IMG/VR virus record: IMGVR_UViG_3300039448_000013 | Span: 1 to 37,336 of that record | Origin: a virus | Length of the DNA: 37,336 nt | Direction: 5' to 3' (one strand) | Shown here: piece after piece, positions 23,977 to 37,189 of the stretch | Position numbering within the stretch: position 1 is the first letter of the stretch | Layout of the letters: every line of letters begins with the position of its first letter | Notes under the pieces: model-generated | What the model saw: the letters and a program-made list of their open reading frames with translations, nothing else | Databases searched by the model: none | What the model was told of the DNA's origin: nothing | Translations under genes and position numbers: made by a program

Positions 23977-24029
23977 ATAACACCTCGTTACGTTCGACCT
24001 CGTGCCTCGGCGCACGAACTCTTTGTTAT
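23977..24029 (-). repeat. attC-like intercistronic element (53 bp)
   Basis: On the minus strand the element reads ATAAC, 13 bases, core GCCGAGGCACGAGGTC, 14 bases, GTTAT. It starts one base past the stop codon of the 59-residue gene. The same 5-13-16-14-5 plan occurs at 34439-34491 and 37036-37088. Internal arms CGTGC/GCACG and GTTCG/CGAAC can pair. It resembles an integron attC site; other explanations are an RNA element or terminator. Confidence 0.6.
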
Positions 24030-24209
24030 TTAGTCGCTTCCGTCCAAATAGTCTTCATACGTCACAGGATGGTTGCACTCAGGACAAAGAGGGTCTTGAC
24101 CAAGCCACTGTAGTGATTTGCAGAGCGCGTCAGAACCCTCTCGTGTCGTCTCTATTTTTTCAAACCCACAATTAATACAATCAATTCCAGCCTGATTATT
24201 TTCTGGCAT
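24030..24209 (-). CDS. 59-residue zinc-ribbon protein in a cassette-like unit
   Basis: A small gene with a strong GGGAGG ribosome binding site. The protein starts MPENNQAGIDCINCGFEKIE and ends YEDYLDGSD. Two CxxC pairs (C11/C14 and C42/C45) form a likely zinc ribbon, with an extra Cys30. The function is unknown; such small zinc ribbons often bind nucleic acid or protein. It is bracketed by two attC-like elements, so gene plus element make a unit of about 250 bp. It stands between the SSB gene and the 106-residue membrane-anchored gene. Confidence 0.72.
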   Translation of the reverse strand: MPENNQAGIDCINCGFEKIETTREGSDALCKSLQWLGQDPLCPECNHPVTYEDYLDGSD

Positions 24210-24227
24210 TTAATCCTCCCGCGCCAA

Positions 24228-24277
24228 ATAACAAGGCGCTCAAATTGGACGCTACGCGCCCGTTAGCTTGTGGTTAT
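24228..24277 (-). repeat. attC-like intercistronic element (50 bp)
   Basis: On the minus strand ATAAC overlaps the TAA stop of the 106-residue gene. Then come 13 bases, a core GCGCGTAGCGTCC, 14 bases and GTTAT. The stem GGGCGC/GCGTCC closes a GTA loop (with one wobble pair). It keeps the 13 and 14 base arms of the other elements but has a different core. Read in the other direction, its start (TAACAAGGCGCTCAA) also looks like a chromosomal attC. Confidence 0.55.
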
Positions 24278-24594
24278 TTTTCAATATCCCTGTTATGTGC
24301 AATATTTCGGCGGCGACACAAATCAAACATATATTCCTCTCGCTCTGAATCACTCATTCGAATCAATGCCTTAACATCCATTTCGAGGCTCTGGTGAAAT
24401 TCATCATTGCGAACCCACAGCCGATTCCATGTTATGCGCGGCCTGAACGGCAGCATTTTGATTTCGTACAGAGCAGCGGTCATTATTAGTCCTAGAAAAA
24501 TAACAATGCGCTCTACACCGGACGCTTGCGCGCCCTGCTGTTTTTCATCTTTCATAATTTTCTCCATGCAAGCGCCGGGGTTGTTTGCTCCCAT
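24274..24594 (-). CDS. Small protein with one membrane segment
   Basis: A protein of up to 106 residues with one likely membrane segment around residues 30-45 (IVIFLGLIMTAALYEIKML), then a basic and acidic cytoplasmic-type tail (SDSEREEYMFDLCRRRNIAH). I do not recognise it. The ATG at 24594 overlaps the stop of the previous gene (TGATG) and has GAGGTGG upstream. A shorter start at 24555 (MKDEKQQGAQ) also has a good GGAG. Its stop codon forms the first bases of an attC-like element. Confidence 0.55.
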   Translation of the reverse strand: MGANNPGACMEKIMKDEKQQGAQASGVERIVIFLGLIMTAALYEIKMLPFRPRITWNRLWVRNDEFHQSLEMDVKALIRMSDSEREEYMFDLCRRRNIAHNRDIEK

Positions 24595-24872
24595 CACTGC
24601 ACCACCTCGCCTTTTCCCTGATCACCCCACAACGTCAATGCGCCACGCACCCGGTGTGGCACTTGCACGTGTGTAGCTTTCACGATTCGAATCACGCTCT
24701 CGTGTACGTCGTAACGTTCGCACGTATCGCCTGCGGTTTTTTCTGCGCCGGTTACCCAATCACGCTTGCCGCCACAATGGTCGGCGTATTTGCAGCCGTT
24801 GCACGGGTAGTCAGCGGTGTACGCGGTAGAGTTGAATGATTTAATGCGCTCAATATCGCTTGCCATTTGCAT
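24594..24872 (-). CDS. Small Cys-rich protein
   Basis: A 92-residue protein with four Cys in the motif CNGCKYADHC plus a later DTCERY, spaced like a zinc or Fe-S binding site. The C-terminal half is beta-prone and basic (HESVIRIVKATHVQVPHRVR). Its function is unknown. The ATG at 24872 shares bases with the stop of the upstream gene (TGATG), supporting this start over a five-residue longer one. Confidence 0.6.
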   Translation of the reverse strand: MQMASDIERIKSFNSTAYTADYPCNGCKYADHCGGKRDWVTGAEKTAGDTCERYDVHESVIRIVKATHVQVPHRVRGALTLWGDQGKGEVVQ

Positions 24873-25267
24873 CACGCCGCCTCCCACTTGCCGTATTTTT
24901 TTAACGTTTTTTCAGTGGGATACCAGATCAGGCATTTGCGAGTAGTGACACGACACTCGCGTATGTTGCGGATCGGTTTGCCGTCAGCAGTGAGTTGTTC
25001 ACCTGGCATAACATTCTGAAAACTCGTACCCATGCCATCGGCTAAACGGCGTGCGCATTCATGGCGGTTTAAATCCGGATACACAGCAACAACGATGTGT
25101 GCGACTTCGGCACTCGTGAGGCCGTCGGTGTAAGTCGTCAGTACTTTTTCAAGTTGTTGAATATGCGTTTGGCGTTGGCCTGAAGCGGTCACCTCAAGCG
25201 CGGCCAGATGACTGCTGGGGGCGTCGGTTACTCGTGCTGCCGGTGTGTCGATATTGGTTGCTGTCAT
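24872..25267 (-). CDS. Hypothetical replication-region protein, possible winged helix
   Basis: A 131-residue protein. After a low-complexity N terminus, residues about 34-80 form a helical region (HIQQLEKVLTTYTDGLTSAE, then AHIVVAVYPDLNRHECARRL) that resembles a winged-helix DNA-binding module. It is followed by a basic C terminus with RECRVTTRKCLIWYP. I infer DNA binding only weakly. It is directly downstream of the replication initiator gene, in the place where lambda has gene P, but shows no helicase-loader motif. Confidence 0.55.
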   Translation of the reverse strand: MTATNIDTPAARVTDAPSSHLAALEVTASGQRQTHIQQLEKVLTTYTDGLTSAEVAHIVVAVYPDLNRHECARRLADGMGTSFQNVMPGEQLTADGKPIRNIRECRVTTRKCLIWYPTEKTLKKYGKWEAA

Positions 25268-25299
25268 GGTCGTCTGTCCTCGTCCTGTCCTGAAATCTG

Positions 25300-26361
25300 T
25301 TACCAGCTTGTATCGGTTAAGCGCTTCATGCTGGCTTCAGCACTGCGATAATCTGGCTCTTTGCTGGGTGTTGCCCAACTGGTGTCGTTTAATCGGTTGT
25401 TCGTCCCTGCGGCGCTGGTATCCAATGCCGAAGGCGTGTGGCGGCGTTCGTTGAACTTGGCGGCCAACACGCCCCACTTCGCGCGCAGCTTGTGCGGGCT
25501 GAGTATGTTCGAGCGCCAGAATTCATCGGTATTTGCAAAGCGGAACAGCGCGGCGATTTGTTCGGGGGTTCGTTCGTCAGCGTGACGCATTAATCGAATC
25601 TCGTTGGCCCATGCGGCAATGTTCGGGCGCTTGTCATCGAGGGTGACGTCAGCCACAGCATCCGCCAGCAAGTTAGCCAGCTGCTCGTCGATGTGCTCAC
25701 CCCACAACGCCGCTTTTCCAGTGCGGCTCGCGATCACGGCGGTTGGGTGTTTTTCTTGAACGCGATCAAGCAATGATTTTTTCTCTGTCGTCGGAGTGCG
25801 TTCAGCACTCCGACAATCAGCAGGAACCTGCTGCGAGTTGTTTTTAGAAATGTCTTTAAAAGTTTCTTTAGAGTTTTCTTTATAAGGGGGGTTACCGGCG
25901 ACCCCCTGACGGGGTTGTACATAACCCCCTGACGGGGTTACCGGCGACCCCTTAACGGGGTTACCCATAACCCCGTGTTGTTTTTTGCTTCGGGGTTGTG
26001 CGCGACCCCCTACCGGGGTTGTAGATGACCCCATGCAATCCCAATCCGAAACCTGTTTATTAATGCTAAGCTCGCCAGAATTGAGCAATAAAACGCCGCG
26101 CTTAATTAATCCGCGCTTTAATTTTCCGCAGTTTTTTGCCTCGATGCCTGTCCAATTACTGAGGTCATTTTCAGTAATGCGACGGGCCTTTAATTGATAC
26201 CCGTAGGTGTTACGAACAACAGCCAGAACAACACGCAATTCACGCGCAGTTAATCCAGAGGCGACCATCAGCTGATCAACCAGACCATTCGCTAAACGTG
26301 TAAAACCCTCGCTCATGCTGGCCACCTGCTGCTGTTCGAAATGTACGATTGTTGCCGTCAT
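25300..26361 (-). CDS. Replication initiator, lambda O-like, with ori inside
   Basis: A 353-residue replication protein. Residues about 15-105 match the phage O N-terminal winged helix (GFTRLANGLVDQLMVASGLT, LRVVLAVVRNTYGYQLKARR), which binds iterons. Residues about 110-158 are encoded by the iterons themselves, giving repetitive Gly/Pro-rich sequence, followed by an AT-rich-encoded segment KENSKETFKDISKNN. The C-terminal domain has the FWRSNILSPHKLRAKWGVLA motif common in primosomal or helicase-recruiting phage proteins. No separate helicase or loader gene is evident, so this protein probably recruits host DnaB directly or through another partner. Confidence 0.85.
   Translation of the reverse strand: MTATIVHFEQQQVASMSEGFTRLANGLVDQLMVASGLTARELRVVLAVVRNTYGYQLKARRITENDLSNWTGIEAKNCGKLKRGLIKRGVLLLNSGELSINKQVSDWDCMGSSTTPVGGRAQPRSKKQHGVMGNPVKGSPVTPSGGYVQPRQGVAGNPPYKENSKETFKDISKNNSQQVPADCRSAERTPTTEKKSLLDRVQEKHPTAVIASRTGKAALWGEHIDEQLANLLADAVADVTLDDKRPNIAAWANEIRLMRHADERTPEQIAALFRFANTDEFWRSNILSPHKLRAKWGVLAAKFNERRHTPSALDTSAAGTNNRLNDTSWATPSKEPDYRSAEASMKRLTDTSW
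25837..26032. other. ori: Phage replication origin: six iterons plus AT-rich DUE
   Basis: Six 18-bp sites with the form GGGGTT-N8-CCCC/ACCCC start at 25888, 25911, 25934, 25957, 25992 and 26015. Steps are 23 bp except one of 35 bp. Each is a dyad (GGGGT/ACCCC). Copies 1 and 3 are identical: GGGGTTACCGGCGACCCC. Next to them, 25837-25885 is very AT-rich, as expected of the unwinding element. Relative to the gene, the iterons come first and the AT-rich part after, as in lambda ori within gene O. Confidence 0.9.
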
Positions 26362-26613
26362 ACGTGCGTCCTGTGATTAAAAAAAACCGGCTCAGCGCTT
26401 CACAGCGATTCACCGGCACCGCGTAACCCAGCGGCGGGAGATACGATCACCTCCTAAGGGGCGGTGGCCCGTAAATCATCCCAATCAATACAGCGCACCG
26501 GATCGGGTTCGGTGGTGGACTCAGCCAAGGGAGGAGCACCCCAAAGGGGTTTTCAGCCATCCACTGCAGGTGTTATTTCTATGCACTCACGACCGCCTGC
26601 TGCGCGAGCCCGA
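26362..26613. other. Gap of about 250 bp, no firm gene
   Basis: Between the initiator start and the DksA-like gene there is no frame I can support well. One minus-strand frame from a TTG encodes 24 residues ending RCIDWDDLRATAP; it looks protein-like but has no ribosome binding site. A GC-rich stem (CCCCTTTGGGG) and an A8 tract beside GCCGGTTT suggest RNA structure. It may hold a leader or nut-like region for the early operon, which is inference. Confidence 0.4.
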
Positions 26614-26829
26614 CTAACGCCGGAAGGGCTTACCCTTTAATTCAATGTTCGCCTGGCACCCAACGCACAACTGCACACCAGGAATCGCAACGCGACGCTT
26701 TTCTGGGATCTCTGAATCACACTCTTCGCAAAATTCAGCGCTCACACCGCTGTACTTAGGGAGTGCCGCCAAACTGCGATCCAGTTGCGCCTGAATAACC
26801 ACATCGGCCTGATCGCATACATCAGCCAA
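26614..26829 (-). CDS. DksA/TraR-type zinc-finger protein
   Basis: A 71-residue protein of the DksA/TraR C4 zinc-finger family. An N-terminal helix (ADVCDQADVVIQAQLDRSLA) leads to the zinc site FCEECDSEIPEKRRVAIPGV then LCVGC, with all four Cys present. TraR-type proteins bind the secondary channel of RNA polymerase without ppGpp. I choose the TTG at 26829, giving M-ADVCDQAD, with GGTGA upstream; an earlier TTG at 26835 is possible. It slightly overlaps the tiny membrane protein gene. Confidence 0.85.
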   Translation of the reverse strand: MADVCDQADVVIQAQLDRSLAALPKYSGVSAEFCEECDSEIPEKRRVAIPGVQLCVGCQANIELKGKPFRR

Positions 26830-26947
26830 GGCCAATCACCACCACCGCTAAAACGGTTTCAGCAACCAACCCCAATGCAGTAACGCCAATCACCACCGAA
26901 TACGGATGACTTAAAACACCTGTAAATTTATCCAGCACTTTTTTCAT
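26822..26947 (-). CDS. 41-residue membrane protein
   Basis: A tiny gene that starts with ATG and has GGAG eight bases upstream (GGAGCCACACATG). The protein begins MKKVLDKFTGVLSHPYSVVI, and residues 16-41 are continuously hydrophobic (VVIGVTALGLVAETVLAVVV), ending at Gly. It should be a single-span inner membrane peptide with a basic cytoplasmic N terminus. Its stop overlaps the DksA-like start region. It is the second gene of the early leftward operon, so it may act early, for example on host membrane functions; this is unproven. Confidence 0.65.
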   Translation of the reverse strand: MKKVLDKFTGVLSHPYSVVIGVTALGLVAETVLAVVVIGLG

Positions 26948-26985
26948 GTGTGGCTCCAAAAAAAAACCGCGCAGAATAAAAACAT

Positions 26986-27249
26986 CTACGCGGCGTCAGT
27001 TTCCTGTCCGTCCTGTCCTGCTGGCGCTGCGTAGAAATACACAGCGAGTTGCTCACGGGAAATCGAACCGGGGCGAATCGTATTAATCGCAGATAAAAGA
27101 GTTTCGAAACGGTCGCGGCGCGGGACACTTCGCAGTGATAACGGCGCTGGCATGTATTTCATCTGCACTGTAGCCCACGAAACGCCAGCTTTAATGCAAA
27201 GGGCTTTCCGCTCATCGTCAGAAAGAGATTTAAGAATTTCTCGAAACAT
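26986..27249 (-). CDS. Cro-like regulator
   Basis: An 87-residue regulator and the first gene of the early leftward operon. It has a helix-turn-helix at about residues 10-32 (SDDERKALCIKAGVSWATVQ), then a basic stretch and a helical tail. A strong GGAGG site precedes the ATG at 27249; a seven-residue longer frame lacks this support. It diverges from the S24-type repressor with shared operators between, the usual cro/cI layout, so it should repress the lysogenic promoter or its own. Confidence 0.75.
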   Translation of the reverse strand: MFREILKSLSDDERKALCIKAGVSWATVQMKYMPAPLSLRSVPRRDRFETLLSAINTIRPGSISREQLAVYFYAAPAGQDGQETDAA

Positions 27250-27269
27250 TGACCACCTCCAATCCAACA

Positions 27270-27298
27270 AGTAAAAACCTTTCCGGTTTGTTTGTCAA
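27270..27298 (-). promoter_or_regulatory. Early leftward promoter
   Basis: On the minus strand -35 TTGACA (27298-27293), a 17-base spacer and -10 TTTACT (27275-27270) form a strong promoter 21 bases before the Cro-like start. The -35 box is embedded in the inverted repeat at 27285-27312, so repressor binding should block it. Confidence 0.8.
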
Positions 27299-27312
27299 CA
27301 AAACAACAAACC
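27285..27312. promoter_or_regulatory. Immunity operator dyad
   Basis: GGTTTGTT (27285-27292) and AACAAACC (27305-27312) are perfect inverted copies 12 bases apart and overlap the early promoter. The same half-sites recur at 27346-27370 and upstream of the rightward operon at 29515-29570. Confidence 0.7.
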
Positions 27313-27319
27313 TTAACGA

Positions 27320-27381
27320 TTTGCAATGAGGTTTCAGTAGCACTTGGTTTGCAATGGTAGAAAACAAACCAAATTGCATTG
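27320..27381. promoter_or_regulatory. Second operator cluster near repressor start
   Basis: GGTTTG (27346-27351) and CAAACC (27365-27370) flank the repressor start codon. TTTGCAATG occurs at 27320 and 27348, with an inverted relative (TTGCATTG) at 27373. These could be operators that let the repressor or the Cro-like protein control repressor synthesis. Confidence 0.5.
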
Positions 27382-28091
27382 AAAATAAAGAGATGGATAT
27401 ATACGAAACTCGAAGGTTAAACCTTCAACATCTTGCAGATGAGCGCTTTCCCGGCTACGGCCAAAGGGCAAAGCTCGGCGATCTAATGGACTGGAAGCAC
27501 CAGCGAGCATCAGCCCTATTGCGCGAAAAGAATCCAAAAAACATTGGAGGTACTGCTGCAAGACTAGTTGAGCAAAAGTTTAAGCTGCCCAGAGGCTGGC
27601 TGGACGAACAGCATCCAAACTTGTGGGATGGCACGATCAACTCAGTAAGAGAAGCCCTGAAAGCCTCCTACACCACCAGCGTCGATCAGATAAAACCCCA
27701 GTCCTTGCCATTACTAAAAGATGATGAAGCCGTGCGCTGGATCAGCGGCGAGCGGTTTACACCCACCAGCCGGATGCAATTCCCCATCATGCCTATGATG
27801 ACGATATCCAACGACGCATTTGTACTGGAAGAAACCACCAGCAGCATGCCACCACAAAAACCCGGCGACTTTTACTACATCGACCCACTCACAACACCAG
27901 AGAGTGGCGAATGGGCGGCGTTCATTATTGGCAGTAAGGTGGTGGTAGGTATTTACGAGAAAGGACGGGTAAGCGACCGTTTAGAGTTCACAAACGGCAA
28001 AGAAGCAGCGATTGAAATCACCGAAGACCAGCACGCGGGCAAAGTGCTTACACGCATGAACGGTGATTTTGCGAGAGGATTTGGCGGGTAA
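27354..28091 (+). CDS. Phage repressor, HTH plus S24 peptidase-like domain
   Basis: A 245-residue lysogeny repressor. The N-terminal part (residues about 14-85, LNLQHLADERFPGYGQRAKL then WKHQRASALL) is a helix-turn-helix domain. The C-terminal part from about residue 140 is S24/LexA-like: TTSSMPPQKPGDFYYIDPLT carries the likely nucleophile Ser164, and SKVVVGIYEKG follows where the Lys is expected (K195). No clear Ala-Gly cleavage site is seen in the linker. A second in-frame ATG at 27393 directly follows AAAGAG. The 27354 start has no ribosome binding site, so it may be leaderless as in lambda cI. It ends two bases from the convergent lipoprotein gene. Confidence 0.85.
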   Translation: MVENKPNCIENKEMDIYETRRLNLQHLADERFPGYGQRAKLGDLMDWKHQRASALLREKNPKNIGGTAARLVEQKFKLPRGWLDEQHPNLWDGTINSVREALKASYTTSVDQIKPQSLPLLKDDEAVRWISGERFTPTSRMQFPIMPMMTISNDAFVLEETTSSMPPQKPGDFYYIDPLTTPESGEWAAFIIGSKVVVGIYEKGRVSDRLEFTNGKEAAIEITEDQHAGKVLTRMNGDFARGFGG

Positions 28092-28093
28092 GG

Positions 28094-28561
28094 CTAATCC
28101 GGTATCAATAATGCGGGAGTTGCCTTTATTGCAGCATTCATGTCTTTAATCATAGTATCGACCTTAGCTTTAATCGATGCAGCCTCGAACTCTCTATGAG
28201 GAACATACCAGTGCTCTCTAAAATCTGAAAAGTAGACCCGAAGCTTCCCGTTAACGATCTCAATATCAATACTATACGTATAATCACTGAGTTGAGTTGA
28301 AAAGCCATTAAACTCAGACACCACCATCATTCCTCTACCTATCACCCTTCCATGGTCTAACGAGGCATACTGAATGACCTCCGACGACGTGTGATACGTT
28401 TTAGCCATATACACCATCACTCGGTGATATAGCTCAGCTTTATCAACGCCAGGAACAAAGATCATCGCCCGATGAACAAAGGCATCATCTGGCGCTTCGT
28501 CATAACTCATCTGAGCACAACCAGACAACACCAACAAACAACACAAAATTAACGCTCGCAT
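28094..28561 (-). CDS. DUF4468-like lipoprotein (cargo)
   Basis: A 155-residue lipoprotein with a short signal peptide (MRALILCCLLVLSGC) and a lipobox LSGC. The mature part has the pattern of DUF4468 proteins: a VPGVDKAELYHRVMVYMAKT segment, then VIQYASLDHGRVIGRG, a beta-rich TBP-like fold. Position +2 Ala suggests transport to the outer membrane. Genes beside the repressor and opposite to lytic transcription often alter the lysogen surface or block superinfection, so this is a plausible cargo gene. It is coupled to the upstream lipoprotein gene (TAATCATG). Confidence 0.75.
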   Translation of the reverse strand: MRALILCCLLVLSGCAQMSYDEAPDDAFVHRAMIFVPGVDKAELYHRVMVYMAKTYHTSSEVIQYASLDHGRVIGRGMMVVSEFNGFSTQLSDYTYSIDIEIVNGKLRVYFSDFREHWYVPHREFEAASIKAKVDTMIKDMNAAIKATPALLIPD

Positions 28562-28563
28562 GA

Positions 28564-29421
28564 TTACCCCCCAAACTCAACATTAACGACCTTGGCCACC
28601 GCGTTTCCTTCCTCCCAATCGCCAAGATTTGAATCTAATGTGTAATACTCTGTTTTACCCATCTCGTGAACATAGCCGGGCTTTAATGGCTTCGCATCTC
28701 CGTAAGAATACTCGCTAACCAACACAGGGTGATAACTTTCCTCGTAGATAACCTTATCGAGCTTGTCCCTAAAGTAGACAACAACTTCAACCTTATTAAG
28801 CGTACGAGAGCCGTTGTTTCTAAGCTTAAACCTTACGGCGGGTACGTCCTTTTTAGAATAAGTATCAATGCGAGTGGCTTCGAATGCGGATATCTCGACG
28901 CTAGGAATGTAAGCCGTTTTTTCTTCCGCTAATTTAATCGCTGATTCGGTCTCGACAAGCCCATTTTTTGCGGCTTTAGACTCTGGGTCTTTCGTTTGCA
29001 GTTCGGAGTAAGCAGCAATAGCGCCTTCATAATCACCAGCCTCTCGTAGATCTTTTGCACGAATAGAGAGTGCCTTGAGATTCGCGCGATGCTCGGCAGC
29101 CTTGATCTCTTTATTGTACTCTGCAACCACTTGAGCGCCTGTCATTCCGTCAATATGAGAAATTGATACCGGTTTTATATCGCTGGTTTGACCGAACGCT
29201 TCAGCAAAGGCGTTAGCTAAGGCACCCACGCCGCCCGCCTGAAAATATGAGATAGCACGATCAAACTCCTCATGCTCGGATTCAGGCATCGAAGTTCTCA
29301 CTTTCGCAATAGAGTTGATCAAAGAGTCATGAGTAGTGGTGTCGATTGTCTTTTCAGGAAGACAACCGGATAGCGCCACTGACGCAGCAATGACAAGCCC
29401 AACCATAAGATGTTTAAACAT
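28564..29421 (-). CDS. Lipoprotein with DUF6694-like, helical and beta domains (cargo)
   Basis: A 285-residue lipoprotein. The signal (MFKHLMVGLVIAASVALSGC) ends in lipobox LSGC. The mature N terminus resembles the DUF6694 lipoprotein type (IDTTTHDSLINSIAKVRTSM). Next is a helical repeat region with a TPR-like look (AKDLREAGDYEGAIAAYSEL). The C-terminal third is a beta domain (PAVRFKLRNNGSRTLNKVEV) like those of FxLYD or DUF2393 proteins. A strong AAGGAGG site supports the ATG at 29421; the longer frame has no such site. With the next gene it forms a two-gene unit that diverges from the rightward early operon. Confidence 0.75.
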   Translation of the reverse strand: MFKHLMVGLVIAASVALSGCLPEKTIDTTTHDSLINSIAKVRTSMPESEHEEFDRAISYFQAGGVGALANAFAEAFGQTSDIKPVSISHIDGMTGAQVVAEYNKEIKAAEHRANLKALSIRAKDLREAGDYEGAIAAYSELQTKDPESKAAKNGLVETESAIKLAEEKTAYIPSVEISAFEATRIDTYSKKDVPAVRFKLRNNGSRTLNKVEVVVYFRDKLDKVIYEESYHPVLVSEYSYGDAKPLKPGYVHEMGKTEYYTLDSNLGDWEEGNAVAKVVNVEFGG

Positions 29422-29514
29422 AACTTCCCTCCTTAGAATTTCTCCAAACCATACCACTCGGCAAGCCACCAGCAAACAAGCCAAAACCAAACTGGTATAA
29501 AAATCTTATCAAAA

Positions 29515-29570
29515 GGTTTGACATAACAAACTTTTGGGGTTTATTCTTGTACAAACCGTTTTGGTTTGTA
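29515..29570 (+). promoter_or_regulatory. Rightward early promoter with operators
   Basis: The plus strand has -35 TTGACA (29518-29523), an 18-base spacer and -10 TATTCT (29542-29547). GTTTG-N6-CAAAC (29516-29531) covers the -35 box, and TACAAACC-N5-GGTTTGTA (29550-29570) lies just downstream of the -10. These half-sites match those in the cI-cro region, so one repressor probably controls both operons. The minus-strand lipoprotein genes diverge from here. Confidence 0.75.
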
Positions 29571-29583
29571 TTGAGGTGTCACC

Positions 29584-29958
29584 ATGAACGAACAACACAG
29601 TTGGACAGTAGAAAAAGGCGCGTTGCCCTACCGCCAAGCGCAAGTGATGGCAGGCATTGCCAACGGCCTCACAGACAAAGAAATGGCCGAGCAAGCGGGT
29701 GTTAAGCCCTCTGTCATCCATGGAACGGTTAACACCCTCTTCTACAAATTCAAACTTGGCCGAGGCCGTCGCGCTGCGCTGGTGGCTGAGGCTATCCGCA
29801 GCGGTTTTCTGCAAAGCGGTGCTGTGATGATGCTGCTGTTGTTTGTTCAGGTGTCATCAGGCCCAGACCTTGATTGGCGGCGCGCTAAAAACCCAACCCG
29901 TACCCGCCCAGTGAGCACACGCATCGTGCGCCGTGGTCGCGAATTCGATTACGCGTAA
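29584..29958 (+). CDS. LuxR-type HTH transcription regulator
   Basis: A 124-residue protein whose residues 14-75 are a LuxR/GerE helix-turn-helix (LPYRQAQVMAGIANGLTDKE, then AEQAGVKPSVIHGTVNTLFY). There is no receiver or ligand-binding domain. A hydrophobic stretch (AVMMLLLFVQVSSG) and a basic Arg-rich tail follow. It is the first gene of the rightward operon. The ribosome binding site is GAGGTG upstream of the ATG. It may activate or modulate later phage genes or host genes. Confidence 0.8.
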   Translation: MNEQHSWTVEKGALPYRQAQVMAGIANGLTDKEMAEQAGVKPSVIHGTVNTLFYKFKLGRGRRAALVAEAIRSGFLQSGAVMMLLLFVQVSSGPDLDWRRAKNPTRTRPVSTRIVRRGREFDYA

Positions 29959-29967
29959 GGAGTCAGT

Positions 29968-30171
29968 ATGAAATTCAAAAGCACATGCCACACAGATAAG
30001 CACAGCAATCGTTACTGGCTCGGTGAATACACAATGCCAAACGGTCAAGTATTACTCTCCGAAGGCCCAAGCCTTGGCGAAGCCATGCACGGCATTTCAG
30101 AACAAATGAAAGCCGCAATCAACAATCATGAGCGATGCCTTCAGCAATTAAAACGCGGCATCGCAGCGTAA
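29968..30171 (+). CDS. Small hypothetical protein
   Basis: A 67-residue protein with an AAGGAG site upstream. The first half is beta-prone (NRYWLGEYTMPNGQVLLSEG), the second helical (LGEAMHGISEQMKAAINNHE). It looks like a small soluble phage protein of unknown function. It lies nine bases after the LuxR-type gene and is probably coupled to it. Confidence 0.6.
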   Translation: MKFKSTCHTDKHSNRYWLGEYTMPNGQVLLSEGPSLGEAMHGISEQMKAAINNHERCLQQLKRGIAA

Positions 30172-30267
30172 GACTTCAGCACCAACGGTTGGCCCCCGTG
30201 CATTACTGGTAGGACGCCAGAGAAAGGCCATAAATTAAGGACAGGAAACAGGACAAAGGGCAGAGAG

Positions 30268-30765
30268 ATGAAACTTTCAAAACCGAACGAGCAAGACCTT
30301 AACGGCGCAATTGACATTGCTCGCATTCTTGATGATCTCAACAAAGGCTGGTTCCCATCTGGCGACGATGGCGACCATGTTTTCGACATTATGGACAGCG
30401 CAGATTGCCGTAAGGCGTTGGATATCCTGATCGGGATTAGCGACCAGTGCAGCCTGATGCGCGCCGCCATGACCACGCTGGTTTTGTGCGATCCAATAAA
30501 TAAATCTATCGACCCTGATTGCGATCATGTCGACCATCATCCCGAGGTAAAAGAAGCGATGGCACTCAAAGAGCGTATCGACAGCTTCTTTACGCAGGAA
30601 TTCACCGGCGGCATGAAATTCAAGAAAGGCGACCAGGTATATGATGTTGCTTCCGTCGATTTTGAAGAGGGTCTTGTCGCGTACAGCGTTGATTGGTCTG
30701 ACGACCTCCAATGGGCTCGCTGGGAAAATATTGATCTGATTGAAGATCAGGCGGTGGCGTCATGA
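30268..30765 (+). CDS. Hypothetical acidic phage protein
   Basis: A 165-residue acidic protein. The N-terminal half is helical (LNGAIDIARILDDLNKGWFP) and includes a stretch VDHHPEVKEAMALKERIDSF. The last 50 residues form a beta-rich module that looks like a small SH3-like or Tudor-like fold (FKKGDQVYDVASVDFEEGLV), a type also seen at the end of other phage accessory proteins. The function is unknown. It overlaps the next gene by four bases. Confidence 0.6.
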   Translation: MKLSKPNEQDLNGAIDIARILDDLNKGWFPSGDDGDHVFDIMDSADCRKALDILIGISDQCSLMRAAMTTLVLCDPINKSIDPDCDHVDHHPEVKEAMALKERIDSFFTQEFTGGMKFKKGDQVYDVASVDFEEGLVAYSVDWSDDLQWARWENIDLIEDQAVAS

Positions 30766-31001
30766 AAAACAAACTCACCGATCTGCAAGATCACCTATTT
30801 GCACAACTCGAACGACTTGGCGAAGAAGGTCTTGATGAGAAAACAATCGCGACCGAGATCAAACGATCTTCAGCGATGTCCGGCTTGGCAAAGCAATGCA
30901 TTGATAACGCAAGCCTCATGCTCGATGCCGCTAAATTTCAACATGAAGTAGGTCCCGGAAAATTCGTACCCGAATCCATAGGGCTTGCTCATGAAAAATA
31001 A
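30762..31001 (+). CDS. Small helical phage protein
   Basis: A 79-residue helical protein (KLTDLQDHLFAQLERLGEEG, then helices around KRSSAMSGLAKQCIDNASLM). Very similar short proteins are common in tailed phages, where their role is unknown. It starts with ATG overlapping the previous stop by four bases, and its stop overlaps the HNH gene start region. Confidence 0.65.
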   Translation: MKNKLTDLQDHLFAQLERLGEEGLDEKTIATEIKRSSAMSGLAKQCIDNASLMLDAAKFQHEVGPGKFVPESIGLAHEK

Positions 31002-31599
31002 ACAAATCGAGTGGACGCAAGAGCGTATTGAATGGGTTAGTAAAATGGTGAAGGTTTTGCCGCACAGTCAGATACCTAAGCTATTTCAAGAGGCGTTCGG
31101 TGTCCCTGTTGCAGATACCGCAATCAAAGGCGCATGTGCTCGTTACGGCATACGCACAGGGCGCAGCGGGCAATTCAAAAAAGGCAACAAATCTTGGAAC
31201 GAAGGCACCAAAGGCGTAATGAAAGCCAACGCAACCACGTTCAAAAAAGGGCAGTCACCACACAACGAAAAGCCGCTTGGCACTGAGCGAAAAACGAAAG
31301 ACGGCATTATTGAAGTCAAAGTAAAAATGACAGGCAAAAGCTGCGAACGCTGGCAGAGCAAGCACAGCTTGCTTTGGGAACAGCGCACAGGTCAAAAAGT
31401 GCCAGCAGGCCACGTGGTGATGTTTGCGGATGGCAATCGCAGCAACTACGACCAAAGCAACCTTCGCTTAGTTAGCCGTCGTGTGAACGTTACGCATAAT
31501 TCACGCGGATACAGCCACCAGCCAGAGGAAATACGCCCGGCGTTGTTGGCCGTCGCACAACTAGACACCGCTATTAAACAAAATCAGGAGGCTCTATGA
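30991..31599 (+). CDS. HNH homing-type endonuclease
   Basis: A 202-residue HNH nuclease with an N-terminal helical DNA-binding part (IEWVSKMVKVLPHSQIPKLF), a basic linker containing NKSWNEGTKG, and a C-terminal HNH core (KHSLLWEQRTGQKVPAGHVV, FADGNRSNYDQSNLRLVSRR) in which His and Asn of the motif are visible. This layout is that of free-standing phage HNH homing nucleases rather than the packaging HNH at 18.3 kb. It may be a selfish insertion, or it may be a cargo gene. The ATG at 30991 is preferred over the TTG at 30985. Confidence 0.8.
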   Translation: MKNKQIEWTQERIEWVSKMVKVLPHSQIPKLFQEAFGVPVADTAIKGACARYGIRTGRSGQFKKGNKSWNEGTKGVMKANATTFKKGQSPHNEKPLGTERKTKDGIIEVKVKMTGKSCERWQSKHSLLWEQRTGQKVPAGHVVMFADGNRSNYDQSNLRLVSRRVNVTHNSRGYSHQPEEIRPALLAVAQLDTAIKQNQEAL

Positions 31600-32111
31600 C
31601 ATACCCTCTCGTCATCATCGCGGCAATCATCACCGTAATCATTGCCAACATCGCAGACGTCAGCGCACTCGCACTTGCCTACGGTGTTGCCGTTGTTGGT
31701 GCGGCGGCAATTATTATTTTTTCAGCGATTAGCGGCTGCATTAAATGCCTAGCATTCAGAATGGCCACGCAGTTGGAGCAGCTGCCACCAGCAAAAATAA
31801 AAGCGCCTTCAGTACTTGAGTCTTTTGATCGTGAGGCCATACCGGAAATTATCAACTCGCTCGAATGCTCGTGTCGTTACTTAAAAGTGGATGCGCCAAT
31901 CAAAGATGTCGATAAAAGCGACATTTATCACCTGCTCGTGGTGGCGAATCATTTGAATGGTTGCATTGCTCTGCATTTGAGTGATCTGCATGGTGAAGGC
32001 TCTATCGCTCAAAAAGCATTCTGGGATGGATTCGAACGCGCAGCGATGTCTGACAACAAAAACATTCGCCAACACTGGAATGAGTACAAGCGTGTTAGAG
32101 GGGTGGCGTGA
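31596..32111 (+). CDS. Two-span membrane protein
   Basis: A 171-residue protein. Residues 4-22 (PLVIIAAIITVIIANIADVS) and 24-50 (ALALAYGVAVVGAAAIIIFS) are two membrane segments. The soluble C-terminal part is helical (VLESFDREAIPEIINSLECS). I do not recognise the family. It overlaps both neighbours by four bases, so it belongs to the operon. It may be a phage accessory membrane protein; no specific role is seen. Confidence 0.6.
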   Translation: MTYPLVIIAAIITVIIANIADVSALALAYGVAVVGAAAIIIFSAISGCIKCLAFRMATQLEQLPPAKIKAPSVLESFDREAIPEIINSLECSCRYLKVDAPIKDVDKSDIYHLLVVANHLNGCIALHLSDLHGEGSIAQKAFWDGFERAAMSDNKNIRQHWNEYKRVRGVA

Positions 32112-32797
32112 TGAAAGCACTACCGATGATTTTTAATACTGAAATGGTTCAGGCGTTGATGGATGGAAAAAAGGTGCAGACGCGGAGGCCATTTTCGATG
32201 CCGCAAGGATGGGATTTAAAGGATGGTAATTTGTGCAAAATTACTGGGAAACACCCTAAGAGCGGAAAATGGGGCGTGATGATCCGTCGGGAGCTATACG
32301 ACGGTCGCTATGAGCATGACCTTGTAGTTGCTCCGGCTATGCCTGGCGACCTGATCTATGTTCGTGAGACGTTTTGCAAAGTTGACGATACAGAGCATGG
32401 CGAAGATGTTTGGGTTGACTACCGAGCCACACCGAAATATTCAAGTGAACACCCAGCAGGCTGGGATTGTGACCCGGATAATCCTTATGCGCTGAAGTGG
32501 AAGCCATCAATTCACATGCCGCGTGAACTTAGCCGAATCACTCTGAAAGTTACCAGCGTTCGCGTTGAGCGAGTACAGGATATTTCACTAAATGACTGTA
32601 TTGCTGAAGGCTTCCGGGGTGGGCACGGGAGTATCCCCGGCTATATGTACAGCGCCACCCCGAAAGAACACTTCAGTGAAACATGGAAGCAAATCTACGG
32701 CGACCACTGGGATAACAACGGCTGGGTGTGGGTAATCGACTTTGAAGTTATCCAAGCTAACGTAGATGCAGTAATTGAAAAGATGGGGGTGGCGTGA
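32108..32797 (+). CDS. ASCH/PUA-like phage protein
   Basis: A 229-residue protein with a fold like ASCH domains. The start (MIFNTEMVQALMDGKKVQTRRPF) and the middle (PAMPGDLIYVRETFCKV) match this group, as does the end (WKQIYGDHWDNNGWVWVIDF). ASCH proteins bind RNA or modified nucleotides; in phages they are common next to methyltransferases and of unclear function. It is coupled to the cytosine methyltransferase gene (overlap TGATG). Confidence 0.75.
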   Translation: MMKALPMIFNTEMVQALMDGKKVQTRRPFSMPQGWDLKDGNLCKITGKHPKSGKWGVMIRRELYDGRYEHDLVVAPAMPGDLIYVRETFCKVDDTEHGEDVWVDYRATPKYSSEHPAGWDCDPDNPYALKWKPSIHMPRELSRITLKVTSVRVERVQDISLNDCIAEGFRGGHGSIPGYMYSATPKEHFSETWKQIYGDHWDNNGWVWVIDFEVIQANVDAVIEKMGVA

Positions 32798-34242
32798 TGC
32801 ACATTTACAACGCTACCCAAGGCCAAATGGGACTACATCTACCCAACGCCCTGATCGTCGACAACTTCGCCGGTGGTGGCGGTGCATCAATGGGCCTAGA
32901 AATTGCATTCAATCGCCCGGTTGATATAGCAATCAACCACAACTCTGAAGCGATCTCTATGCACCTGGTGAACCACCCTGACACAGAACACTACTGCGAA
33001 TCAGTCTTTGACGTAGACCCAATAAAAGCCACATATGGCTTGCCGGTTGAATGGGCGCACTTTTCGCCAGACTGCACACATCACAGCAAAGCCCGTGGTG
33101 GCAAGCCAAAAAAGAAAGAGATACGCGGCCTAGCTTGGATTGTTATTAAATGGGCAATACTCAAGCGCCCCGAAAAAATAAGCCTTGAGAATGTCGAAGA
33201 ATTTAAAACGTGGGGGCCACTGAATGAAGAAGGCCACCCGATTAAAGAACGTGCCGGAGAAACCTTCGACGCCTTTATTTTAATGCTCACCACCGGCATT
33301 AAAAAATCACACCCAGCCACGAAAGAGCTACGCGAATTTTTACCCGCTGGCTTTGATATAACAGCAGTATTTAAAGGGCTTGGCTACACCGTCGATTTCA
33401 AAGAATTGCGCGCCTGCGACTACGGCATACCAACCACCCGAAAACGTTTTTTTATGGTTGCCCGCTGCGATGGCGATCAAGTGCAATGGCCAGAACCAAC
33501 ACACGGCCAAGGCTTACTCCCATACAAAACCGCCGCCGACTGCATTGACTGGTCGATACCCTGCCCGTCGATATTTACCCGCAAAAAACCGTTGGTAGAA
33601 AACACCATGAAGCGCATTGCTCGTGGCTTGAAACGCTTCGTTATCGATGCAGAGAACCCGTATTTAATCGACAACAACAAAGTGACCTTCATCACCGAAC
33701 ACGCCAACGCCAGCAACCAACGAAACATGCCAAGTGACGAGCCATTGCGCACAATTTGCGCGGGCGTAAAAGGCGGGCACTTTGCATTAGTTACCGCATT
33801 TCTCGTTAAACATTACGGCGGCAACTACACCGGCGCAGGCATCGACATGCGCGCCCCACTCGACACGATAACCACCACCGATCACCACGCCCTAGTGTCA
33901 GCATTTTTAGTTAAATACTACGGCAACGACAAAGACGGCTGCGACATAAACCAGCCTCTACACACCATAACAACCAATGATCGATTTGGATTAGTGCTCG
34001 TAAAAATAAACGGCGAGACCTACAAGATAATCGACATCGGAATGCGCATGCTTACAGCCCACGAGCTGTACATTGCGCAAGGATTCCCAGAGGGATACAT
34101 CCACGACCGCACCGCTGACGGAAAACCACTCTCTAAAACCGCACAAGTTCGCATGGTTGGCAACTCAGTACCACCGGGATTAATAGCAGCCATTGCCAAA
34201 GCCAATACCGAACAACAACAGAAAAACCGGAGAGCGGCGTGA
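32797..34242 (+). CDS. DNA cytosine-C5 methyltransferase
   Basis: A 481-residue methyltransferase. The AdoMet motif is NFAGGGGASMG (23-33), motif IV is SPDCTHHS (90-97) with catalytic Cys93, motif VI is ENVEEF (131-136), and motif VIII is GIPTTRKRFFMVAR. The target recognition part has a twofold internal repeat (PLDTITTTDHHALVSAFLVK and a second copy with PLHTITTNDRFGLV). Motifs IX and X are in QGFPEGY and QVRMVGNSVPP. No restriction enzyme gene is adjacent, so it is a solitary methyltransferase, likely protecting phage DNA from host restriction or regulating expression. The sequence it modifies cannot be read. Confidence 0.93.
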   Translation: MHIYNATQGQMGLHLPNALIVDNFAGGGGASMGLEIAFNRPVDIAINHNSEAISMHLVNHPDTEHYCESVFDVDPIKATYGLPVEWAHFSPDCTHHSKARGGKPKKKEIRGLAWIVIKWAILKRPEKISLENVEEFKTWGPLNEEGHPIKERAGETFDAFILMLTTGIKKSHPATKELREFLPAGFDITAVFKGLGYTVDFKELRACDYGIPTTRKRFFMVARCDGDQVQWPEPTHGQGLLPYKTAADCIDWSIPCPSIFTRKKPLVENTMKRIARGLKRFVIDAENPYLIDNNKVTFITEHANASNQRNMPSDEPLRTICAGVKGGHFALVTAFLVKHYGGNYTGAGIDMRAPLDTITTTDHHALVSAFLVKYYGNDKDGCDINQPLHTITTNDRFGLVLVKINGETYKIIDIGMRMLTAHELYIAQGFPEGYIHDRTADGKPLSKTAQVRMVGNSVPPGLIAAIAKANTEQQQKNRRAA

Positions 34243-34442
34243 CAAAAATAATCGTAATAGGAGGCACAACCGAAGCCACCAAAGTCGCTCAATTACTTAC
34301 AAGCGCCTGCTCGCATATTGAATTTCAAACCATGCGAATTCATGCACCGGAAATTGAATTGCATGAACCGGCACCCGCCCTACCTCTGACAAATAGAGAA
34401 ACATGGCGCGGACGCGGAAAGCGAAGAATGCCGAAACGATAA
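34239..34442 (+). CDS. Small hypothetical protein before an attC-like element
   Basis: A 67-residue protein with GTG start overlapping the methyltransferase stop (GTGA). The first part is Rossmann-like (KIIVIGGTTEATKVAQLLTS), the last part is basic (RETWRGRGKRRMPKR). The function is unknown; the basic tail suggests nucleic acid contact. Its TAA stop is the first part of the attC-like element at 34439-34491. Confidence 0.55.
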   Translation: MTKIIVIGGTTEATKVAQLLTSACSHIEFQTMRIHAPEIELHEPAPALPLTNRETWRGRGKRRMPKR

Positions 34443-34491
34443 CGCCGCACACGTGAGCCGAGGAACGAGGTCTCATGCTGGCGTGTGTTAT
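34439..34491 (+). repeat. attC-like intercistronic element (53 bp)
   Basis: ATAAC overlaps the stop codon of the 67-residue gene. Then come 13 bases, core GCCGAGGAACGAGGTC (34457-34472), 14 bases and GTTAT (34487-34491). A 5-base outer pair (ATAAC/GTTAT), an inner CACACG/CGTGTG and TGAG/CTCA can fold. The plan is identical in length to those at 23977-24029 and 37036-37088, though the sequences outside the core differ. Confidence 0.6.
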
Positions 34492-34517
34492 TGAATGAAT
34501 TTAATTGAGTCTTAAAT

Positions 34518-35075
34518 ATGAAAAAACAAACACCGCGCGTGCGCAAAAAGAAAATTAAGTACACCAAAGCACAAAAAGAGCGTCACATTGCCAATCTGGC
34601 AATAAAAGACCTCGTGTGCGTGTACGTTTACAGCGGTAAAGACTCGATGACCAAACTCGTCAATATCAAAACGATGAGCATCGTAAAAGCAACGCCACTC
34701 ATCGACTCAGCCACAAAGTGGTATCCCCACAAATGGGTAGTCAGTATCGCGCTGCTGATCCGTGAAAAGAACATGAAAATCAAAGCACCCAGCGAAGAAG
34801 TCAGCGCTCGCGATGCAAGCGGCAACGCGGCGGCAGTAATGTTCGAAAGCCTAAGCCCCACACTCGATACTTGGCACAAGCAAATGATACGCAGCAACCC
34901 CGCGCCAGAGTGCATAGTTAACGTGGGATGGATCGGAAACCCGCACGGATATGAGATAGACCCAGCAACAGAGCTAGCACTGTACGAGCTTGTGGGCGGC
35001 TTTCGAGACTACATCGCCCCGTGGGAAGTTGAAGCCAAAGAATCAGCAGGCTATGACGTACAGGTGATGTCGTGA
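34518..35075 (+). CDS. Hypothetical basic protein
   Basis: A 185-residue protein with a very basic N terminus (MKKQTPRVRKKKIKYTKAQK) and a mixed middle (DLVCVYVYSGKDSMTKLVNI). The C-terminal half is more acidic. I do not recognise it. It lies after an attC-like element and is coupled to the DUF4224 gene (TGATG overlap). It could be a nucleic-acid-binding accessory protein, but there is no direct motif evidence. Confidence 0.55.
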   Translation: MKKQTPRVRKKKIKYTKAQKERHIANLAIKDLVCVYVYSGKDSMTKLVNIKTMSIVKATPLIDSATKWYPHKWVVSIALLIREKNMKIKAPSEEVSARDASGNAAAVMFESLSPTLDTWHKQMIRSNPAPECIVNVGWIGNPHGYEIDPATELALYELVGGFRDYIAPWEVEAKESAGYDVQVMS

Positions 35076-35305
35076 TGGGTGAGTTATCGTATTTTCTAAC
35101 CGATGATGATTTATTTCTGCTTACTGGCAGAAAACAGCACAGTGCTCGCATCAAGCAGCTAAAGGCGCTGGATATTCCATACACATCTAACGCAGACGGA
35201 AAACCCCTAGTGTCACGGGCTGCACTTGATCAGCGAATGGGGCTCGTAAGCACTACCGCTGCGGCGGCAAACTGCAGCAATGATGACGGCTTTAGACTGG
35301 AGTAA
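35075..35305 (+). CDS. DUF4224 protein, likely excision partner of the integrase
   Basis: A 76-residue protein with the pattern of DUF4224 (FLTDDDLFLLTGRKQHSARI, then LKALDIPYTSNADGKPLVSR). The first 60 residues resemble a winged or MerR-like helix-turn-helix as in excisionases. DUF4224 genes lie directly upstream of phage integrases, as here with four bases between. It is therefore a good candidate for the recombination directionality factor. The ATG at 35075 overlaps the previous stop. Confidence 0.8.
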   Translation: MGELSYFLTDDDLFLLTGRKQHSARIKQLKALDIPYTSNADGKPLVSRAALDQRMGLVSTTAAAANCSNDDGFRLE

Positions 35306-35308
35306 ACA

Positions 35309-36433
35309 ATGGCACCACGCAAACGTAAAGATGCAGGCAGTAATTGGCTACCCGATCGAGTTTATCAAGACAAGTCTGCGTACTATTACCGCCCAGCAGG
35401 CGCTAAAGCTAAAAGGCTATGTGCGATTATGCGCGACAGTAGCGGGGTTGCGATAGAGCCGCCAGAACAGAAGCGTAAGATTCTGATCGCATATGAGAAA
35501 GCCGTCAGTGAACTTACAGAGGTTAAAGACATCAGCTATTGGCTTAGTAAATTCCTAGTGTCTGACAAATTCCTCAGTCTTGGGCAAGCCACGCAAGAAG
35601 ACTACCGGCGTTACATTGAAGTGCTGGTTGATACCAACAACCCGCAGAGCAAAGCAACTCACAACGGCATACGCTACACGTTCGGCAAAATGATCCCGCG
35701 CGACGTGAAGCCGACGCACATACGCAAATACATGGATTATTGGTCAAATCCTCGGAGCGTGACACTATCAAGCGGAAAAGAACTAAGCACTCAAGGAAAG
35801 CCAAGCACAGCGAATAAGCACCTGGCATGCATGCAAACATTCTTCAAATGGCTTCGCCAGTATTTGGCCGGTATGGAGAACAATCCAGCCGACGGCATTA
35901 CAAAATTCAAAGAGCAGAGTCGACAGATATACATCACTGACGAGCAATATATGCGCGTACTGGAAGCGGCGCTGAACAGCACCACGCCGTGGCTCATGCC
36001 TTACCTTGAGATCGCCTACTTATGCGGTATGCGCAGGGCCGAAGTGTGGGATTTAAACATTGAAGACATCGTCACCCAAAACGGCGAAAAACACCTCACA
36101 ATCAAACGGAAGAAAGGTTCGCGTGGGGAGCTAATACCCATTACGGGCCATCTAAAGCAAGCCATAGCGGTGGCTATAGCCATGCACCCAGCAGGTAAGC
36201 CGGAACCACTGACTAATCGCCCCCTGATACGCAACACGCGTGGCGACCGCATTACAAAAAGCTCACTTCAGAACGCAATCGACAACATGAGAGCAGCAAC
36301 CGGTATTGCAGATATCCGTACTCACGACATGAAAAAGAAAGCTGGCACGGATGGAAAAGACCTTGGCCATAGAACAAAAAGGATGGCTGAACTGTACGAT
36401 CTAAGTATTAAGATCGGAAAAGCGACGCGGTGA
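35309..36433 (+). CDS. int: Tyrosine integrase (HxxK variant)
   Basis: A 374-residue tyrosine recombinase. The arm-binding part is the basic N terminus; a core-binding SAM-like domain spans about 75-190. The catalytic residues are Arg242 (CGMRRAEV), Lys269 in the beta hairpin, His339, His354 (LGHR) and nucleophile Tyr363 (MAELYD). The second catalytic Arg of the standard HxxR box is replaced: HDMK with Lys342. This HxxK form is known in DUF4224-associated integrases. It is located next to attR, and integrates the phage at tRNA-His. Confidence 0.93.
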   Translation: MAPRKRKDAGSNWLPDRVYQDKSAYYYRPAGAKAKRLCAIMRDSSGVAIEPPEQKRKILIAYEKAVSELTEVKDISYWLSKFLVSDKFLSLGQATQEDYRRYIEVLVDTNNPQSKATHNGIRYTFGKMIPRDVKPTHIRKYMDYWSNPRSVTLSSGKELSTQGKPSTANKHLACMQTFFKWLRQYLAGMENNPADGITKFKEQSRQIYITDEQYMRVLEAALNSTTPWLMPYLEIAYLCGMRRAEVWDLNIEDIVTQNGEKHLTIKRKKGSRGELIPITGHLKQAIAVAIAMHPAGKPEPLTNRPLIRNTRGDRITKSSLQNAIDNMRAATGIADIRTHDMKKKAGTDGKDLGHRTKRMAELYDLSIKIGKATR

Positions 36434-36461
36434 TAACCCTTGGTGTAAACGGAGAACGGAA

Positions 36462-36713
36462 ATGAGTGAAGCGAATTGTAGTGAGTCCGATTTCACGCCT
36501 TTGTTATGTGCGGTTTATAGCCATGAGCGAACCGCATGGTGTGTATTTAAAGAAGAGTCGCCTTTAACTATGCGATTTCTGTGGAGATGCCACAACAATA
36601 AAGCGGCCAATAAGTTAGCTAAAGAGGTTAATGGTGGCGCGACAATATGCAAAGGCTGTAAAGAACTTGGAACAGCTTGCGGCAAATGTATTAAATGCGA
36701 ACTAAGCGCATAA
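36462..36713 (+). CDS. Cys-rich zinc-ribbon-like protein in a cassette-like unit
   Basis: An 83-residue protein with nine Cys. The C-terminal part (CKGCKELGTACGKCIKCELS) has CxxC pairs typical of a zinc ribbon. The N-terminal part is less ordered, with a central aromatic stretch (RTAWCVFKEESPLTMRFLWR). A GGAG ribosome binding site precedes the ATG. Its stop codon forms the start of an attC-like element. It lies between the integrase gene and attR, a usual place for cargo. The function is unknown. Confidence 0.6.
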   Translation: MSEANCSESDFTPLLCAVYSHERTAWCVFKEESPLTMRFLWRCHNNKAANKLAKEVNGGATICKGCKELGTACGKCIKCELSA

Positions 36714-36768
36714 CCCAGAGCTTTGCTGTGTGAGCCACAGCGAGCATCTGACAAAAGTGAATTGTTAT
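36710..36768 (+). repeat. attC-like intercistronic element (59 bp)
   Basis: ATAAC (36710-36714) overlaps the TAA stop, and GTTAT (36764-36768) closes the element. The hairpin GCTGTG-TGAGC-CACAGC is followed by GAGCATC, in the place where the others have the (G)AGGTC end of their core. It is the most divergent and longest copy, with a different left arm. Confidence 0.5.
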
Positions 36769-36781
36769 AAATAGGTGTGTT

Positions 36782-37039
36782 ATGGAACCAGTATCAAGAA
36801 AAGAAGATATGTCGCCACGCGGACAACTACGCATTTTCACCGATAACGAAGGTGATATTCATGTATCTGTATTCTCAGATGACGGCAATGGAAGAATTGA
36901 AACGATGTCGTCGGTAGAGTTCTGTACATGCGGCATTGGTGGGGGTCAGAGTCCAGAAACACGAAAGGCTCTTATTGAGCTGGCAAAGGCAATGGAGATG
37001 GACAATAAAAGCAGACCTGCAAAAGCCGGTGATTTATAA
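36782..37039 (+). CDS. Small hypothetical protein in a cassette-like unit
   Basis: An 85-residue protein, beta-rich in the first half (RGQLRIFTDNEGDIHVSVFS) with a short SVEFCTCGIGGGQSP loop and a helical end (RKALIELAKAMEMDNKSR). Similar short proteins occur in other phages, where their role is unknown. The unit from the previous element to the end of the next one is about 320 bp, resembling a gene cassette. It is the last gene before attR. Confidence 0.6.
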   Translation: MEPVSRKEDMSPRGQLRIFTDNEGDIHVSVFSDDGNGRIETMSSVEFCTCGIGGGQSPETRKALIELAKAMEMDNKSRPAKAGDL

Positions 37040-37088
37040 CAAAAAGTTCGTTTGTCGAGGAACGAGATCATACGCAACACAGTGTTAT
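37036..37088 (+). repeat. attC-like intercistronic element (53 bp)
   Basis: ATAAC (37036-37040) contains the TAA stop of the 85-residue gene; then 13 bases, core GTCGAGGAACGAGATC, 14 bases and GTTAT (37084-37088). Length plan and core match the copies at 23977-24029 and 34439-34491. TCGTT/AACGA can pair across the core. Confidence 0.6.
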
Positions 37089-37123
37089 CAGTGGTTGTTT
37101 CCATTTTGGAACATACCACTAAC
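37084..37123. repeat. Imperfect palindrome after the last cassette-like unit
   Basis: GTTA-GTGGT-TTCC on the left pairs with GGAA-ACCAC-TAAC on the right, with three bases (TCA) bulged on the left and short internal bulges. It begins inside the end of the previous element (GTTA) and has the reverse polarity (GTTA to TAAC). It could be a cruciform or recombination site near attR, or a terminator. Confidence 0.4.
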
Positions 37124-37161
37124 GCATAGAGTTTAAGAAGTTTACTGTATGAATTAACATG

Positions 37162-37189
37162 CTGTATATTCGGAATTAATATTCCGAAA
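37162..37189. other. Candidate integrase/excisionase arm sites, right
   Basis: TTCGGAAT (37169-37176) and ATTCCGAA (37181-37188) form an 8-bp perfect inverted repeat with a 4-base spacer. CTGTATATTC (37162) and ATATTCCGAAA (37179) recur near attL at 387-401. Located 43-70 bases inside attR, these fit arm-type binding sites. Confidence 0.45.

Follow-up and report, generated by a model that had tools for sequence, protein, structure and literature searches.

Reversed-polarity attC sites in a temperate phage genome and the probable exchange of attC-plus-gene cassettes by an integron integrase

Introduction

The stretch analyzed here (the window) is a virus record (G000) of 37,336 bases with five short elements that begin at or beside the stop codons of small genes and resemble integron attC sites, raising the question of whether they are attC sites and how such sites would operate in a phage. 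A preliminary description made from the letters alone had regarded attC cassettes in a phage without an integron integrase as unusual; however, 17 phage CALINs have been published according to the available text of Qi et al. (2023; PMC9892861). As in the window, these combine attC sites with small genes and have no integron integrase, and some are active with IntI1. Phage attC clusters are therefore already known, and what is undescribed in the literature searched is the polarity and the gene starts reported below. From the combined evidence, we consider it likely that the window carries integron-type attC sites of a temperate phage in cassettes of reversed polarity, exchanged as attC-plus-gene units by an integron integrase.

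Results and discussion

Identity of the elements

All five elements lie where they were first placed, and each runs from ATAAC to GTTAT in gene orientation (Table 1). The shared core and the length of 53 nt described for three copies hold for attC 1, 3 and 5, while attC 2 and attC 4 measure 50 and 59 nt. For four genes (ends 24274, 34442, 36713 and 37039) ATAAC itself provides the stop TAA, and for the fifth (end 24030) the stop directly adjoins attC 1. Matches to ATAAC-N35-60-GTTAT number six in the window against a mean of 0.78, and none of 100 shuffles reached six; the sixth match (23337-23394), inside an ORF at 22838-23446, was taken as chance. The original count of five stands but is incomplete, as an additional site, attC 6, directly follows the phage integrase gene. 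The two clusters in the window (23977-24277 and 36434-37088) are without an integron integrase and fit the definition of a CALIN.

Table 1. Positions of attC sites and associated genes in the window
Feature	Position	Strand	Remarks
attC 1	23977..24029	+ (attC strand, antisense to flanking genes)	model R1 34.4 bits, E 8.6e-6
59-aa ORF	24030..24209	-	between attC 2 and attC 1
attC 2	24228..24277	+ (attC strand)	model R1 24.3 bits, E 0.0024; without the shared core
107-aa ORF	24274..24597	-	ends on attC 2
67-aa ORF	34239..34442	+	ends on attC 3
attC 3	34439..34491	- (attC strand)	model R1 17.7 bits, E 0.10
phage integrase (tyrosine recombinase)	35309..36433	+	PHROGs phrog_1, E 1.9e-34
attC 6	36434..36506	- (attC strand)	directly 3' of integrase stop; 42/44 inner bases as in L215 site
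83-aa ORF	36462..36713	+	start inside attC 6, end on attC 4
attC 4	36710..36768	- (attC strand)	model R1 13.4 bits, E 1.1; lowest of five
85-aa ORF	36782..37039	+	between attC 4 and attC 5
attC 5	37036..37088	- (attC strand)	model R1 27.0 bits, E 5.2e-4

The repeats had been expected to recur elsewhere if real, and they do: positions 36710-36768, exactly the attC 4 stretch, are 98.3% identical to L007 1293-1351, positions 24214-24279 are 98.5% identical to L029 1398-1463, and attC 3 matches places in L006 and L007 at 89%. Additionally, cores like those of attC 1, 3 and 5 are present in 41 viral stretches, attC 2 resembles a bacterial integron attC (L298 4713-4767), and a relative of the 85-aa ORF in L020 is likewise flanked by two elements. 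An Rfam search gave no match at the elements.

Folding, proposed as a further check, gave a divided answer. Plain folding of the gene strand was weak and uninformative for most elements (z of -1.4, 0.1, -1.7, -3.8 and -1.3 in coordinate order), but attC-type pairing and covariation were present. On the attC strand, antisense to the genes, the elements read TAAC, 5 nt, 3 bp, one extrahelical base, further pairs, 5 nt and GTTA with some mismatches, giving a paired L box, an extrahelical base and unpaired spacers; pairing is imperfect in attC 2, 3 and 4. Permuting the 3' arms among the five gave pairing as good or better in 2 of 120 arrangements (identity counted), and single-element shuffling gave p values of 0.0075, 0.12, 0.12, 0.027 and 0.0125. 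The proposed covariation was found in 38 viral elements fetched by the core motif alone, where attC pairing with 5/5 spacers reached a z of 7.4 (0 of 2000 permutations), compared with 4.0 without the extrahelical base and 5.3 with that base on the other arm.

Scoring with an attC covariance model, as suggested, was done with a model built for this analysis. This model, R1, comprises 15 sites, none from the window (one aadA-type site from integron array L280, two from phage TJE1 and 12 from bacterial genome contigs), and its alignment shows covariation (0 of 500 shuffles). With filters off, the five distinct places that R1 scored best in the window were the five elements, each with exact ends. 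It scored each of them higher on the attC strand than on the gene-sense strand, where attC 1, 5 and 2 obtained 17.2, 20.4 and 10.7 bits and attC 3 and 4 were unlisted. Because all 12 bacterial contig sites were fetched through the core motif, the core favors attC 1, 3 and 5 in this scoring; attC 2 and 4, both without the core, are the harder test. By R1 alone attC 3 and 4 are weak, yet both recur in other contigs. The model did not match attC 6 in the window and matched its L215 counterpart (E 0.013).

The inverse core ends TAAC/GTTA with a cleavable G|TT are found in all five elements and in attC 6. The R box has the consensus RYYYAAC. All five elements depart from the full form RYYYAAC / GTTRRRY through a T at the fifth base of R'. 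This T was not treated as excluding attC because the sites of phage PH101 have the same T and were active: in the available text of PMC9892861, which gives GTTRRRY as the R box consensus, five of the six phage attC sites tried with IntI1 recombined, PH101 among them. With R1 finding all five and related viruses differing by cassettes whose joints lie where cleavage is expected (below), the attC reading gains support, and on sequence grounds the five are judged to be real attC-type sites, which are presumably active in the window itself.

Polarity of genes relative to attC

Where the preliminary description departs from the data is in likening the stop-codon overlap to that of ordinary integron cassettes, since it lies at the other end of the site. 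With the genes encoded opposite to the attC strand, the stop falls on R' instead of R'', and the cassette therefore consists of attC and then gene. All five genes end on R', and none has the ordinary layout of a gene in attC sense with its stop at or near R''.

This reversal extends well beyond the window. With genes called as uncurated ORFs of at least 40 aa with a stop near the box, R1 matches on viral contigs were 96 reversed, 12 ordinary and 38 undecided, against 2, 20 and 13 in arrays beside bacterial integron integrases (Fisher p 2.5e-13, the elements being non-independent). The viral total combines a core-motif set (30 reversed, 4 ordinary, 3 both, 2 none; the search covered 40 of the 41 stretches, L017 being omitted as part of the same contig as L195, together with L195, L047 and L156) and a canonical-consensus set (66 reversed, 8 ordinary, 13 both, 20 none). 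The latter came from 78 stretches fetched by the canonical attC consensus with genes ignored; 75 of 77 new stretches were searched, L251 and L255 being omitted and longer pieces of their records searched separately. In the integrase-flanked set, which used 36 of 47 R1 matches (TJE1, L284, L285 and two partial matches omitted), the undecided sites were 2 both and 11 none. Identical sites removed from the three sets numbered 1, 14 and 1, respectively. Bacterial counts were limited to arrays beside integrases because a core-motif search of genome contigs, which listed at least 119 stretches, holds many likely chance matches; 30 of these stretches were taken further.

Other ways of counting gave the same picture. 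A simple scanner found 42 reversed, 2 ordinary, 13 both and 8 none in the core-motif set, 56, 7, 23 and 10 in the canonical-consensus set, and 1, 18, 4 and 8 in the arrays beside integron integrases. Voting per locus (n = 67) returned 51 reversed, 8 ordinary and 8 tied, and a listing of 45 viral elements made before the model had genes in the reversed sense only for 29, in the ordinary sense only for 3, in both for 10 and in neither for 3. In 70 of 95 reversed sites the stop codon coincides exactly with the TAA of TAAC. Eight arrays from the G003 family of bacterial genomes had 1 reversed, 21 ordinary and 6 with none. Counting against the reading, R1 at default filters gave no attC in the G149 prophage, which has a related terminase. 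A separate comparison of real and null sequence gave 65 against 6, the null being a single draw.

At loci with at least three reversed elements, the 53 long ORFs include some that match portal, terminase, head and tail families. Among 125 ORFs ending on such sites, a set that takes in resident genes (e.g., integrases) merely ending on a site, at most 33 match any Pfam family; two DNA methyltransferase families account for 5 and 4 matches and dUTPases for 2.

Published phages were compared in the same way. In PH101 the attC sites are on the plus strand and the annotated genes of that stretch on the minus strand, and the arrangement is thus reversed, although the stop is 6 nt from the box at one site and 28 nt at another, and the remaining two have no gene end nearby; the sites at 76532 and 77934 were missed by the simple scanner and found by the covariance model. 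In MW202573 the sites (modest E values of 0.027, 0.43 and 0.75) are on the minus strand and the annotated genes on the plus strand, and site 3673-3735 meets the stop of a gene ending at 3675. The TJE1 site at 1465-1516 has ordinary polarity, and P12002L had no site by the simple scanner or the covariance model at the thresholds used. Qi et al., in the available text of PMC9892861, call the TJE1 and PH101 arrays typical and do not discuss polarity, whereas most viral sites here are reversed; two TJE1 sites were assayed there, possibly not the same two as in R1.

Sedentary chromosomal integrons of marine gammaproteobacteria share the attC architecture, attC 2 resembling one of their sites, but differ in having an integrase and in placing the stop at R'' in 20 of 22 decided cases and in 21 of 22 in a second set. 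The reverse integrons of Treponema, as far as the available text of PMC3607928 and PMC7691350 describes them, share the name and an integrase pointing in the same direction as the cassettes, as in G124 (below); in them, however, it is the integrase gene that is turned, with the cassette stop still at R'' (PMC7691350), whereas the viral cassettes here have the gene itself reversed with respect to attC. No description of reversed phage cassette polarity or of attC-encoded starts was found in the literature searched, which was mostly open-access and did not take in bioRxiv.

Cassette differences between related viruses

Closely related viruses differ by units of one attC and one gene. Flanks of L021 and L041 are 98.7 and 99.3% identical, and a unit of about 412 bp, consisting of an attC and a coding sequence inserted at TAA|C, is present in L021 only. 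L195 matches the window at 99.7% over 734 bp at the end of the integrase and at 90.8% at the attC 5 end; between these the window has two cassettes and L195 a single, different one. L005 and L008 also differ by one unit, the left joint being degraded in L008. A 457-bp unit recurs at 96 to 99.6% in L268, L271, L255 and L256 within four different flanks, with joints at TAAC, and in a deleted copy in L232; it has ORFs on both strands, and its polarity is ambiguous. As whole units at the cleavage point are what distinguishes such near-identical viruses, the exchange of cassettes is recent.

Over all pairs, with both directions of each pair counted, element-side homology begins -6 to -3 from the cleavage point at 26 of 50 end-points and gene-side homology stops +1 to +3 from it at 12 of 24. 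Since ATAAC is common to the elements, these end-points fit a TAA|C joint without fixing the exact base. The comparisons indicate that whole cassettes distinguish related viruses, with joints at TAA|C, where cleavage is expected.

An alternative is that the elements derive from attC sites and now serve only as short homology linkers, with phage or host recombination swapping genes without an integron integrase. In favor of linkers, 24 of 50 and 12 of 24 end-points fall outside these ranges, in some cases at the element's far end, and an integron integrase exceeded the curated cut-off in a single one of 118 viral records (G124). The L021/L041 pair and the 457-bp unit, however, are joined at TAAC, where different elements share only about five bases, and the paired arms covary, which linkers would not need; we consider this explanation unlikely.

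Source of the recombinase

An integron integrase above the cut-off was found neither in the window, which is thus not a complete integron, nor in 116 other viral records (some perhaps fragments). In G124 (L284 2638-6642), a contig with tail genes, the integron integrase has reversed cassettes on one side and a phage integrase on the other; its gene overlaps the start of the phage integrase gene. The L255 record has two pieces of an integron integrase. Among bacteria, 31 of 44 genomes of the G003 family have one over the cut-off; G003 itself, a metagenome-assembled genome with related elements (L047, L156), has its own only in pieces. It is plausible that the integron integrase is supplied by the host.

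The window also has a recombinase of its own, the tyrosine integrase. Its gene ends on attC 6, and an integrase gene likewise ends on an attC in L015, which would suit a phage integrase that recombines the sites itself. It was rejected as an integron integrase, scoring 21 bits against a cut-off of 265, far below what the model requires, and the att repeat of the phage is a different sequence. A 52-bp perfect direct repeat occurs at 249-300 and 37232-37283, the right copy within a tRNA-His gene, and the window is therefore read as a prophage with its attachment sites. In L195 (987-5792) sequences matching the right end (37031-37283) and left end (249-4844) of the window are contiguous across this repeat. 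The L195 junction is the joined attP form of a related phage, the repeats of the window being attL and attR. As the att repeat is tRNA-His sequence and not attC, recombination by the phage integrase is quite improbable.

Gene starts carried by attC

The 83-aa gene begins within attC 6, which carries a ribosome-binding site, the ATG and the opening codons. Starts also lie inside the mutually identical sites of L215 and L224 and inside sites of L202, L230 and L040; this is a further difference from the phage CALINs as described in the available text of PMC9892861. Proteins starting in these sites have similar N-termini (MSEANCSES in the window; MSETNCSES, MNEAKRSES, MMSEAKNDES and MSETNSGM in the others) and diverge past the element, and the attC-borne start codon is probably used. 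By a simple rule, 137 reversed elements divide into 20 with a start and a Shine-Dalgarno-like motif inside, 75 with these within 80 nt after the element and 42 with neither. That the elements are purely expression elements for regulation (translation start, weak terminator) whose recombination has been lost agrees with these 20 internal starts and with attC sites being said in the available text of PMC9892861 to contain weak terminators, but is very improbable in view of the whole units by which near-identical viruses differ at the cleavage point.

Proposed mechanism and implications

In the preferred reading, exchange by an integron integrase, a cassette would comprise, in gene direction, an attC and then a gene starting inside or shortly after it, the attC supplying the ribosome-binding site and start codon in some cassettes and the gene ending in a TAA shared with the R' box of the attC that follows. 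An integron integrase, from the host or rarely from the phage itself, would cleave at TAA|C, which reads G|TT on the attC strand. As cleavage at this point would excise or insert attC-plus-gene units, each unit would land in the direction of the phage operon. An integron integrase is the probable agent of this exchange.

We somewhat favor the broader view that phages keep their own pool of reversed cassettes, in which attC is a translation-start module, in some cases with a shared N-terminal peptide, and which are traded via host integron integrases. If this is true, host integrons would be exchange machinery for phage accessory genes, and phages could swap single small genes in a site-specific and modular manner without carrying the enzyme. 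Phage cassettes in ordinary integron arrays would lie antisense, as would ordinary cassettes in phage operons, and a single kind of enzyme would serve two gene pools that are partly separate. Existing integron assays could then test how phage accessory genes, including DNA methyltransferases, are moved.

Other features of the phage

Searches of a phage collection at the DNA level with window 1-25000, window 36400-37100 and L226 7275-7349 gave no match. Relatives were sought with the window integrase (one locus), with its exonuclease-like ORF (none) and with two further ORFs (one and four loci). A 165-aa ORF (30265-30767) is 92% identical to L156 7164-7666, on contig PBQA01000027.1 of the metagenome-assembled genome, the DNA match stopping at the borders of the ORF. 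Four iteron-like repeats (25888-26035) lie within an ORF at 25300-26361 and possibly mark a replication origin.
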